Shown here piece after piece: positions 379 through 4,095 of a stretch of DNA of 64,000 bases (the first letter of the stretch is position 1; every line of letters starts with the position of its first letter). Position numbers and translations under genes: made by a program. The DNA is from Leptolyngbya sp. PCC 6406 (lineage in GTDB: Bacteria; Cyanobacteriota; Cyanobacteriia; Phormidesmidales; Phormidesmidaceae): the NCBI RefSeq assembly GCF_000332095.2, contig NZ_KI913949.1, positions 3,075,715-3,139,714 of the forward strand, in the 5' to 3' direction. Under the pieces are notes generated by a model. That model was not told the origin of the DNA. It searched no databases and saw only the letters and a program-made list of their open reading frames with translations.

Positions 379-600
379 TTACTGATATTTCTCAGTAAGG
401 TAGGACACGTAATCCTCTCTGGCATCATGCTTCTCTGTTACTGCCGAACTTTTTGCAATCCCTCGAAGCCGCGATAAGTTTCTGTGCTTCAACTGGGGAG
501 GGGGTTCCCGTTTTAGTGACGCCAAAAGAGTTTGCACCAATTGCCAGCGATCGCTCGTTGACAGTTGTAGTACTTGTTTCTGTAGTTCTTGTAATGTCAT
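379..600 (-). CDS. type II antitoxin (partner of the truncated PIN toxin)
   Basis: A 73-residue protein beginning MTLQELQKQVLQLSTSDRWQ, the pattern of a small cyanobacterial antitoxin family usually found directly upstream of PIN-domain toxins (compare VapB/DUF2281-like proteins). It is an N-terminal dimerisation helix followed by a charged C-terminal tail that would wrap the toxin. The toxin remnant starts a few bases after its stop codon, the classic overlapping arrangement. With the toxin disrupted, this antitoxin is an orphan; it could still protect against related toxins elsewhere, which is inference. Assignment rests on pattern and context, not on a diagnostic motif. Confidence 0.65.
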   Translation of the reverse strand: MTLQELQKQVLQLSTSDRWQLVQTLLASLKREPPPQLKHRNLSRLRGIAKSSAVTEKHDAREDYVSYLTEKYQ

Positions 601-763: not shown

Positions 764-851
764 GCATAACGTTGCCCATCACCCGCCGCAGATAGCTTTT
801 GATACTTACAGACAACCTCTCGGCGGTCGGTGTGCATGGGCGTTGTTAGGG
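764..851 (-). other. attC-like recombination site (integron cassette end)
   Basis: Read on the minus strand the site opens CCTAACAACGCCCATGC and closes GATGGGCAACGTTATGC. The two ends form a long imperfect palindrome with arms TAACgttGCCCAT and ATGGGCgttGTTA, an inner CCGCCG/CGGCGG pair, and a variable centre of about 25 bases. This is the architecture of integron attC sites (R''-L'' ... L'-R'). It lies about 40 bases after the stop of the HNH gene on the same strand, where a cassette's attC belongs. The core boxes do not match the consensus perfectly, and no integron integrase is in the window, so this would be a lone or integrase-less cassette site. Confidence 0.55.
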
Positions 852-889
852 TGCGAACTTTCCTAACACAGTCAAGAGGCTGAAATACA

Positions 890-1261
890 TTAGAACTTCT
901 TACTCTTTCTTTTATTACAAGGTGTGCAAAGCAAATGCATATTACTTTTGTCCAATGCTAGGTGAGGGTAGGACGAAACTGGCAATTTGTGATCAATCTC
1001 AAAATAGTCAATATGGAACTCATGTCCTAACATCTTACAGGTAGGACTTGCACACTTCTTCTCCTGCTTTTTGTAGAGCTTTTTTTTGAAGATTTTTCCA
1101 TCATCACTGTCGCGCCAAGAGTTAAATTGAGCACGAGCTAACTTGATAGGATCATATTTATCTTTTATCTCAATACGATCTAACTTTAAAGCCTCTAGAG
1201 AAGCATCTGTCTTTTTTATTGCTGATAGCAAATCAGCAATAATTTGATGGAGAGTACTCAT
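890..1261 (-). CDS. small HNH endonuclease
   Basis: A 123-residue protein. Residues 70 and 75 form a CxxxxC pair, EIDH (about 88-91) supplies the HNH histidine, and LLCTPCN (about 110-116) gives the second metal-binding cysteine pair and the asparagine, so the beta-beta-alpha-metal fold and catalytic residues look complete. The first 40 residues are a helical segment (KKTDASLEALKLDRIEIKD) that closely resembles the C-terminus of the protein encoded just upstream. Its ATG overlaps that gene's stop (ATGA), implying translational coupling. An attC-like site follows the gene. Such small HNH proteins occur in mobile elements and defence loci; the target here is unknown. Confidence 0.8.
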   Translation of the reverse strand: MSTLHQIIADLLSAIKKTDASLEALKLDRIEIKDKYDPIKLARAQFNSWRDSDDGKIFKKKLYKKQEKKCASPTCKMLGHEFHIDYFEIDHKLPVSSYPHLALDKSNMHLLCTPCNKRKSKKF

Positions 1262-1644
1262 TGTGTAGCGTCATATCTCTGTTTTATTTCAGCAGCATCG
1301 GCTTTTAAGGCAGCTAAAGAAGCATCTGTCTTAGCCATTGCCTGAGTAAGTTTTGCAACTACCTTACGAATTTCTGGATCACCGTCTTCTGAAAAAGGAA
1401 TTTCTACGACATTACCTAAAAGCTCTCGTAGGACAGTTAGAATTTCTTCTAAAGTCTTACGAGTAGCTTTCTGAATACGTGGTCGTTTTATATAGTCATT
1501 AATGCTGGCAATAACTTGGCTTAAATCATATATATAAGCTTGCCCTTGCCTACCAAGGGGAGATAAACCCTTCGTTATAATCTGTGCATGATACTTAGAC
1601 ATCCCATAGGCTTGCAATTGTCTACGGGTTACTATCTGAGTCAT
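1258..1644 (-). CDS. conserved hypothetical protein, helical, upstream partner of the HNH nuclease
   Basis: A 128-residue protein I recognise only as a cyanobacterial conserved hypothetical. The N-terminus (TRRQLQAYGMSKYHAQIITK) looks like a small helix-turn-helix or winged-helix segment, followed by a basic stretch and a C-terminal helix. The last 30 residues (MAKTDASLAALKADAAEIK) repeat, with changes, the first 35 residues of the HNH protein encoded next. The stop overlaps the HNH start by the sequence ATGA. It may be a DNA-binding or docking partner for the nuclease; that is inference from coupling and the shared segment. Confidence 0.6.
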   Translation of the reverse strand: MTQIVTRRQLQAYGMSKYHAQIITKGLSPLGRQGQAYIYDLSQVIASINDYIKRPRIQKATRKTLEEILTVLRELLGNVVEIPFSEDGDPEIRKVVAKLTQAMAKTDASLAALKADAAEIKQRYDATQ

Positions 1645-1654
1645 CTGTTAATAC

Positions 1655-2053
1655 TCATGCAACTTTGCTATCATCGTCGTCTTCCTTGAGAACGTGTTCA
1701 ACCATCGGATCTTTTGGAGAACCAAGTTCCCTAGCCTTGTCATAAACACGACCTACAAGACCACGCCAAAAGCCACGCTCTTCTCTAAGATCCTTTTCAT
1801 ACTTCTCAATTTTGGATGCGTGTTCTTTATCTCTGCGCTCCATTTCATCAGTTTTCTTCTTAACCAAACCCTTCTGAGCGCGCTGAAGGTTTTGGCGCTT
1901 GCTTAATTCAGGACCAGCAAATGGAGAGGTAACTCTACGGATTGTAAGCTCATCAGGATTGGTACTAAAGTCAACTGACTCTAGAGCGCGGCTAGCATCA
2001 GCTTTCGTCCATCCTTCGTGCTGGAGCAACTTAATCGCCTGTGACTTGTTCAC
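1655..2053 (-). CDS. conserved hypothetical protein with charged coiled-coil centre
   Basis: A 132-residue protein starting MNKSQAIKLLQHEGWTKADA, which resembles a small UBA- or HTH-like three-helix unit. The middle (about residues 58-95) is rich in K, E and R and likely forms a coiled coil, and the tail is acidic (KEDDDDSK). It has no catalytic motif I recognise. It lies 10 bases upstream of the next gene on the same strand, so the three minus-strand genes between 890 and 2053 probably form one operon whose promoter lies toward the hairpin-repeat array at 2196-2449. Confidence 0.55.
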   Translation of the reverse strand: MNKSQAIKLLQHEGWTKADASRALESVDFSTNPDELTIRRVTSPFAGPELSKRQNLQRAQKGLVKKKTDEMERRDKEHASKIEKYEKDLREERGFWRGLVGRVYDKARELGSPKDPMVEHVLKEDDDDSKVA

Positions 2054-2195
2054 GGGTGTTTAGAAAAACATATATCTTTGTGATCCTAGCTACTACGTAC
2101 AGTTGAGTCAACATTCAACTGCAAGATTGGCAGGCAACCTCAAGGCACTGCCCCACCAAGAACCAAGCACCCTAACTCGTTTTTAGACAGCTCAG
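2054..2195. other. intergenic stretch between the three-gene cluster and the repeat array
   Basis: No gene is visible in these 142 bases. The likely promoter of the minus-strand cluster should be here or inside the adjacent repeat array, but I cannot point to convincing -35 and -10 boxes. Confidence 0.4.
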
Positions 2196-2449
2196 GGCAC
2201 CTCCGCTCTGCCTATCCACCTTGTGTAGGGAAGATAGGCAGAGTTGGTGCCGTCTATCTCCCTGCTGAGGGGATATAGGCAGATTACAGTCTTTATAAGC
2301 ACCCAAATTGGTGGATTAGGCAGATTATAGTCTGTCTATCTCTCTGCTAGAGCGAGATAGGTAGATCATGATCTGTCTATCTCGTCTACATGGGGTGTTT
2401 AGGCAGATCACAGTCTGTCTAAACACCCTGAGCAGAGGAGTTGGGCAGA
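2196..2449. repeat. array of 41-42 bp hairpin repeats (six to seven units)
   Basis: Units start with GGCAGA (GGCACC in the first, GGTAGA in the fifth) at 2196, 2237, 2278, 2319, 2360, 2402 and a partial one at 2444, giving spacings of 41, 41, 41, 41, 42 and 42. The best-conserved core is GGCAGATyAyAGTCTGTCTA, itself an imperfect palindrome. Flanking arms vary between units but stay complementary in several: GGGAAGATAG with CTATCTCCC around the unit at 2237, CGAGATAG with CTATCTCG around 2360, and GGGTGTTTAG with CTAAACACCC around 2402. Unit size is too short for a CRISPR repeat plus spacer. Direct observation; function unknown. Confidence 0.85.
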
Positions 2450-2489
2450 CAGCTTCACAAAAGTTTTATGCGGTACTGTGCCGCATTAC

Positions 2490-3166
2490 TGAAAGAGAAA
2501 GTGATCCAGCCGATCCCCCAACCCCACCAACTCCAGCGCCATCTCCGGCAACACCGGGCGGGGGGCGATGTCCATCACCAAAGCCACATTTTCCCGCGCC
2601 GTCAAACTGGGGGTCAGGTTGTAGAACTAGAAAATGAAGCCGATGGACTCCTGCCGAAACCGAGTCAGCAGGCGATCGCCCCCCTGACTCAGATTTTGCT
2701 GACGAAAATACACTTCCCCGCTGGTGGGCACGTCTAACCCCCCCCAGAATATTCAGCAGGGTAGACTTGCCACTGCCCGACGGCCCCAGCAGCACCACAA
2801 ATTCCCCTTCATACAAATCCAGATCCACCGCCCGCAGAGCGTGAACTTCCACCTCCCCCATGCGGTAGATCTTGGTGATGTGGTGACTGTGGAAAATGGC
2901 TGGAGCCGCGATCGCAGCAGGAACTCTGGTTGACTGACAAAAGTTGCCTCTCAAAGCCCCAAAGGCTCTCGTCACAAGGGTTTCAGGAATCAAGCTCAAG
3001 CTCCTTGTCTGATGGGCATTATGGGGGCTCAATCGTGGTAAAGAGTTTCGCCCTGAAAGCACTGTGCTGTACGCCTTTCAGGGTTTAGTCAGCCAGAACG
3101 CTACACCCCTTACTTTGCGGGCAGTTCAGAAGTTTTGTCAGTCAACCAGGCAGGAACTTGGGCCAT
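2490..3166 (-). pseudogene. ABC transporter ATP-binding protein (LolD/MacB type), degraded
   Basis: Once the inserted MITE is ignored, the minus strand starts ATGGCCCAAGTTCCTGC at 3166 and reads through [18 protein letters not shown] to an intact Walker A (GPSGSGKST). After LLNILGG the frame shifts within a run of G, then continues in another frame as [10 protein letters not shown] and later hits a TAG where the family has the Q-loop glutamine of FIFQFYNL. Similarity ends near 2500, before the signature motif and Walker B. The gene thus carries an insertion, a frameshift, a nonsense codon and a 3' truncation. The family powers lipoprotein or macrolide exporters; this copy cannot work. Confidence 0.85.
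2926..3149. mobile_element. 224-bp MITE inside the ABC ATPase gene
   Basis: Both ends carry the 17-bp inverted repeat CTGGTTGACTGACAAAA. The element is flanked by perfect 9-bp direct repeats GCAGGAACT at 2917-2925 and 3150-3158. Removing the element and one repeat restores the ABC ATPase N-terminus ([16 protein letters not shown]), which proves the insertion and its boundaries. There is no transposase inside, so it is non-autonomous and must have been mobilised by an IS with these ends; a 9-bp duplication would suit some IS4-type elements. Confidence 0.9.
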
Positions 3167-3184: not shown

Positions 3185-4095
3185 GAGGGTGTCTGAGAAG
3201 TAGAAAGGCCCTCAAAAACGCTACTCTATCAGTCAGTAAGTACACTTGATAGGGTTTTTGAGGGCAATGCGATTATCCTACCCCACCGATTTGACTGATG
3301 AACAATGGGATATTCTCTCTCTCTTGATTCCTCCGGCGAAGCCTGGTGGACGACCTCGGAGCACGGATATGCGAGAAGTGGTCAATGCGATTCTGTACGT
3401 TCTGGACAATAGCACCAAGTGGCGGTGCTTACCCCATGATTTCCCGAAGGCCAAAACGGTCTACCATTATTTTCGCCAATGGCGCAATGATGGGGTGTGG
3501 GAACACATCAATCACCGATTGCGGGAGTTGGTGCGGTTAACGGAGGGGCGCGAAGCGTCTCCCAGTGCAGCGGTGATGGATAGTCAGTCGGTGAACAGCG
3601 ATGTCTACATTTCGGAGTCGGTCGGCTTCGATGCAAACAAAAAGGTCAAAGGTCGGAAGCGAAACGTGGTGGTCGACACAATGGGTTTAGTGCTGATGGT
3701 TGTGGTTACCGCAGCGAGTCTCCCTGAGCGGGATGGCGCACGAAAGGTGCTAGAAAAAATGCATCAGGTTAGTCAGTGGTTCACTCGCCTGTGTGTCATT
3801 TGGGTTGATGGGGGATATAGCGGTAACGATTTCATGAAAGAGATCATGGACCGCTTTCGATGGGTGATTGAGGTGATCAAGCGCCCCGACTGTGCGCAGG
3901 GATTTGTGCTGTTACCCAAGCGGTGGGTGGTGGAGCGCACATTTGGCTGGTTTACTTTTTGCCGCCGCTTGAGTAAAGACTATGAGCGCCTACCAGAGAC
4001 CGCTGAGGCATGGATTTATGTGGCCAATATTCGAGTCATGTTAAGGCGACTAACGTGCTAATTCATACCTACATTCCAGCTTTTCAGACACCCTC
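3185..4095 (+). mobile_element. complete IS5-family insertion sequence (911 bp)
   Basis: The ends are GAGGGTGTCTGAgAAG at the left and, inverted, GAGGGTGTCTGAaAAG at the right. A 3-bp target duplication TAA flanks the element (3182-3184 and 4096-4098), matching the TNA target of the IS1031-like subgroup. One transposase gene fills the interior. A strong hairpin (CCCTCAAAAACGCTA paired with TTTTTGAGGGC) lies between the left end and the transposase start and may dampen read-through translation. It landed just upstream of the dead ABC ATPase gene. Confidence 0.9.
3267..4061 (+). CDS. IS5-family transposase (DDE)
   Basis: About 264 residues from the ATG at 3267 (MRLSYPTDLTDEQWDIL); a TTG at 3246 in the same frame falls inside the upstream hairpin and is less likely. 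The N-terminal DUF4096-type region (TDEQW ... GGRPRSTDMREVVNAILY) is followed by the catalytic triad: D in VMDSQSV, D in WVDGGYSG and E in VVERTFGWF with the expected arginine and lysine around it. Length is normal for a single-frame IS5 transposase and no frame break is seen, so the element may still be active. Confidence 0.92.
   Translation: MRLSYPTDLTDEQWDILSLLIPPAKPGGRPRSTDMREVVNAILYVLDNSTKWRCLPHDFPKAKTVYHYFRQWRNDGVWEHINHRLRELVRLTEGREASPSAAVMDSQSVNSDVYISESVGFDANKKVKGRKRNVVVDTMGLVLMVVVTAASLPERDGARKVLEKMHQVSQWFTRLCVIWVDGGYSGNDFMKEIMDRFRWVIEVIKRPDCAQGFVLLPKRWVVERTFGWFTFCRRLSKDYERLPETAEAWIYVANIRVMLRRLTC

Follow-up and report, generated by a model that had tools for sequence, protein, structure and literature searches.

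Conservation is poor among integron attI sites, and they are difficult to locate. The core of the class 1 site attI1, CTAA-AACAAAG-TTAGGC, combines inverted L and R boxes, CTAA-N7-TT spacing and a cut at G^TT; used as a query, the attI1 sequence has matches in at least 5000 plasmids. Extra integrase-binding repeats lie beside the core, in the form of two direct repeats within a site of about 65 bp (PMC8946536, PMC4792948), and these supplementary repeats favour attI x attC recombination (PMC8946536). The attIA site of Vibrio cholerae, located beside intI of a chromosomal integron, is reported without repeats next to its core (PMC8946536). CALINs are defined by attC alone, as two or more attC sites without intI, and one way in which they are proposed to arise is by losing intI (PMC8618304). 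Both intI and attC have already been reported in Cyanobacteria (PMC2426708, PMC8352920); the searched passages of these two papers yielded no description of an attI array or of its orphan copies.

The window, by which we mean the whole 64-kb stretch of the Leptolyngbya sp. PCC 6406 genome analysed here, contains an array of six to seven tandem palindromic units of ~41 bp each. It is very probably of attI type, the place where a cyanobacterial integron primarily takes up cassettes, because arrays of this family are found beside intI, their end has the layout of an integron core, cassettes start at the cut, and attC is found at the cassette end. The array ends share with attI1 the inverted L and R boxes, the CTAA-N7-TT spacing and, presumably, the G^TT cut, as well as putative extra integrase-binding repeats beside the core; the arrays differ in having two to nine dyad units of 41 bp, where attI1 has its two direct repeats. 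The position beside intI is also that of attIA, which reportedly lacks such repeats. Like a CALIN, the window locus has a cassette with attC and no intI nearby, but it keeps the attI-type site; the window shows one clear attC. Tandem short palindromes in intergenic DNA are also typical of REP and BIME arrays, whereas our array shows no REP-type tag or REP transposase link and ends in an integron core. The features of the locus are as follows.

379..600, minus strand: gene of probable cassette 2, following the attC R' GTTATGC; weak antitoxin-like match
764..854, minus strand: attC closing cassette 1, starting with GCACCCTAAC; R'' CCCTAAC, R' GTTATGC; hairpin, DNA fold z -2.9
770..2175, minus strand: gene cassette 1, 1406 bp; its start TTAGGGTGC exactly complements the attC R'' GCACCCTAAC
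890..1261, minus strand: cassette gene c, 123 aa, HNH endonuclease (PF01844, 34.5 bits; partial similarity to PtuB HNH models)
1258..1644, minus strand: cassette gene b, 128 aa, no family above cut-off
1655..2053, minus strand: cassette gene a, 132 aa, no known family
2167..2176, minus strand: R box of the attI-type core with the presumed crossover point, GTTAGGGTGC (sharp paralogue boundary, logo of 44 ends, CTAA-N7-TT spacing)
2176..2182, minus strand: 7-nt central region AAACGAG (same spacing in 48 ends and attI1)
2183..2214: unit 1, irregular; outer half TTAGACAG (2183-2190) is the L box
2235..2256: unit 2, core TAGGCAGAGTTGGTGCCGTCTA
2276..2297: unit 3, core TAGGCAGATTACAGTCTTTATA
2317..2338: unit 4, core TAGGCAGATTATAGTCTGTCTA
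2358..2379: unit 5, core TAGGTAGATCATGATCTGTCTA
2400..2421: unit 6, core TAGGCAGATCACAGTCTGTCTA
2441..2463: right end, half unit TTGGGCAGACAGCTTCACAAAAG, where identity with the closest paralogue stops

The window units follow each other at 41, 41, 41 and 42 bp around the conserved core GGCAGATYAYAGTCTGTCTA, and the array folds far more strongly than its shuffles (z -10.2 on the plus strand and -6.8 on the minus strand). The first-pass annotation was thus correct in describing tandem hairpin-type units with 41-42 bp spacing and a conserved core, and in placing the array directly upstream of a three-gene cluster on the minus strand. Its extent of 2196-2449 is too short: the element common to the window and to the closest paralogue, found in the same genome at G000:C1:2990436-2990714 (87% over 279 bp), begins at about 2167-2176 and reaches about 2463. 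To the right of the array there is a fragment of an ABC transporter, probably a broken gene (2466-3062), followed by an IS4/5-type transposase (3246-4061).

BLAST revealed further copies beside unrelated genes in the PCC 6406 genome. For a wider search we built R1, a two-unit covariance model trained on 23 two-unit rows, which matches the window array with E = 9.5e-17, a value that holds by construction, since the window units are among the training rows. R1 finds about 12 array loci in PCC 6406 (E < 1e-3). Within the same family it detects arrays in 62 of the 65 genomes, within the cyanobacterial class in 154 of 291, and it gives up to dozens of matches per genome. A GTDB-wide search with an exact pattern, which was too strict, gave two matches, both cyanobacterial. 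The arrays are thus widespread in cyanobacteria and not peculiar to the HNH cluster.

The arrays, about 100-350 bp long overall, contain 2-9 units, mostly 4 (84 independent arrays), with a period of 41 bp (n=169), 40 bp (n=60) or 42 bp (n=19). Each unit consists of two inverted copies of the half-site TTAGRCAGA, which resembles the R box of the core (TTAGRC), and one matrix fits both halves. The arrays are polar: the left end has the form AACT-NN-T..TTAG (logo, 44 ends) and its boundary between paralogues is sharp, at G|TTA, while the right side is variable. The six-unit array L095:9844-10068 is a duplicated three-unit block, units 1-3 being near-identical to units 4-6, and thus provides an example of how arrays grow. 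Three arrays occur within 5.5 kb in L088:6203-11749, and every one of them is accompanied by a separate cassette gene and an attC that matches. Identical 422-aa transposases, which we take from their sequence to be ISL3-like, stand beside two arrays (L020:10828-12096 and L021:9796-11064) and are probably ordinary IS copies.

Of the 50 array ends that have CTAA, 48 show the minus-strand layout CTAA-N7-TTRNNY in which the TT is preceded by G. The window has this L and R box core with its G^TT site at 2167-2190, and by the same layout the cut would fall between G (2176) and TT (2175-2174).

At several array loci the right-hand gene, 64-156 bp off and pointing away, is an integron integrase, with the family confirmed by TIGR02249 (480 bits, cut-off 265). 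Among the 30 best intI loci, 27 have an R1 array directly upstream of intI, its end lying 57-177 bp from the conserved IntI N-terminal motif; the three loci without an array include one truncated intI and one at a contig end. By genome, arrays are present in 87 of the 106 intI genomes and give no match in the other 19 (291 genomes; odds ratio 8, p 1e-14, kinship ignored). Both the location directly upstream of intI and the co-occurrence by genome place the array where attI belongs. Beside some arrays in other genomes intI is truncated to various lengths at the expected place, which supports decay of integron platforms.

On the other side of the window array, the minus strand leads from the array through G^TTAGGGTGC (2176-2167) and the three genes (2053-890) to the attC (854-764). 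Within the 64 kb, the 10-mers TTAGGGTGC and GCACCCTAAC are found at these two positions and no others. A cassette whose R'' is complementary to its own start carries the signature of having once been circular. We infer that the three-gene HNH cluster is a mobile integron gene cassette docked at the array edge, because it begins exactly at the array-end cut and closes in an attC with complementary R''. The earlier suggestion that the array is a substrate is thereby right in kind, since the cluster would have entered by recombination at the array end. For the probable cassette 2 no attC of its own was found, and transposase-like sequence comes next.

A similar arrangement is observed at other array loci. 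In 47 of 53 cases the left-hand gene has its start next to the array and is read outwards. The left-hand genes are of the accessory kind that cassettes typically carry: GNAT, HNH, OLD-like ATPase, antitoxins, SnoaL, methyltransferases, a helicase and restriction genes, several of these names being our own reading of the sequences and not the result of a family search. An early lead, that the arrays are specific to defence genes, was dropped, the cargo being generic and cassette-like. The right-hand gene has random strand (25 minus, 26 plus), on which ground we rejected the array as a giant attC. Among 37 oriented candidates, 7 show an exact 10-nt match between cassette start and attC R'', the window being one of them, whereas swapped starts give 1.8%; only a minority of loci thus have an attC whose R'' matches exactly. 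Clear downstream attC candidates are near-constant in size, with 72-77 nt between the boxes. Tandem cassettes lie 308 bp apart in genome G185, and the left flanks of L094 and L095 carry tandem near-identical 308-bp cassettes with attC-like sites, beside full or truncated intI. In L023 (8017-8627) a group II intron (RF02001, RF01998, RF00029) on the strand opposite the cassette gene sits at the cassette 3' end, adjoining TTAGACCGT, and looks like an attC-targeting group II intron. The gene in cassette position at L022:7262-9715 encodes a UvrD/RNase T helicase that matches the PADLOC model RTasHel (DRT-associated) with 1094 bits. The empty-site comparison with L053 showed a rearrangement and an IS at that locus.

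By analogy with attI1, the integrase would bind the units and mediate attI x attC recombination at the arrays. The left end would act as the core, formed by the L box, the 7-nt centre and the R box with its cut G^TT, and is continued by 2-9, mostly 4, dyad units whose spacing of 40-42 bp is about four helical turns; integrase dimers could then occupy one face of the DNA and assist synapsis or topology, a part played in attI1 by its additional direct repeats.

The strong folding energy of the array may alternatively reflect a hairpin formed by each unit in single-stranded DNA or RNA, either as proposed in the first-pass annotation from co-varying arms or in an attC-like manner. The co-variation did not survive analysis: as many pairs changed on both sides in 336 of 500 shuffles (23 two-unit rows), and the outer arms of 358 distinct units from 103 arrays pair no better than shuffled partners (z 0.63; with one unit per locus z -0.86, and z -0.62 for the core). 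The array units thus show no compensatory stem changes of a structured RNA, either among the 358 units or in the alignment, and known integrons recombine attI as double strand (PMC8946536), which makes folding an improbable explanation. The fit of both unit halves to one half-site matrix, with no compensation, is the pattern expected of a site for a dimeric protein, and the symmetry, being a conserved dyad consensus, points to binding by such a dimer, probably the integrase, and not to RNA. Nothing observed speaks for the array as a source of RNA, another suggestion of the first-pass annotation. Such a protein might be mainly regulatory, the dyads controlling the cassette promoter or intI and recombination being restricted to the array end. 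The array does occupy the interval from which intI and the cassette genes diverge, the expected location of Pint and Pc, dyads at four-turn spacing suit a repressor array, and attI1 is likewise a regulatory region (PMC8876359); nevertheless, the half-sites match the recombination R box (TTAGRC) and integrase sites are the more economical explanation, so we regard a mainly regulatory role as rather unlikely, although it is the strongest of the competitors.

A dispersed palindromic repeat family of REP or MITE type, found near accessory genes by chance, would account for a palindromic, non-coding array with about a dozen loci in PCC 6406 and up to dozens of matches per genome. It is very improbable, given that side and orientation are fixed relative to the cassette genes (47/53) and intI, that the single sharp end coincides with the integron cut site while the other end is variable, and that neither target duplication nor terminal inverted repeat was seen. 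Hence the placement of arrays is not random, being set by intI and the cassette cut. By the criteria that the first-pass annotation itself set, the link to this one gene cluster fails: the array that adjoins the HNH cluster upstream in the window was earlier considered its control region, but none of 17 loci with homologues of the 132-aa protein, in 16 other genomes, has an array within about 1.5 kb, and arrays occur beside many unrelated cassette genes, leaving a dedicated control region with next to no likelihood. CRISPR was rejected, as the 19-20 nt spacers share sequence between arrays and the Rfam scan gave no CRISPR family; a type III toxin-antitoxin RNA was also considered and rejected.

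The attI-type reading leaves the window copy without its integrase. In complete integrons intI is found beyond the right end of the array, a place where the window has none, and the whole window lacks an intact intI and thus a complete integron. The PCC 6406 genome contains no TIGR02249 match above the cut-off, only three weak matches, two of them intI-like fragments, which may belong to other recombinases and stand beside no array; no intI was found beside the other PCC 6406 arrays examined. With no intI at either place, function here cannot be current in cis. The window array is therefore an orphan, in which intI was lost and the first cassette with its attC remains. We tentatively suggest, as a possibility below even odds, that in many cyanobacteria scattered orphan attI arrays, every one carrying a cassette of its own, are or once were served in trans by one integrase, with the tandem dyads as a loading platform for finding distant docking sites.

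No description of a tandem-dyad attI was found in the open-access papers searched. An attI built from tandem dyads, of which a genome can hold many orphan copies, thus appears provisionally to be a new variant. With as many as nine dyads in tandem, it also raises the question of their use by an integrase. If service in trans is true, the cassettes of many cyanobacteria would be spread over the chromosome instead of being collected in one array. The recognisable attI signature, widespread in cyanobacteria, makes platforms and first cassettes findable even without intI, and gives access to a large reservoir of cassette genes, of which many are defence-like.
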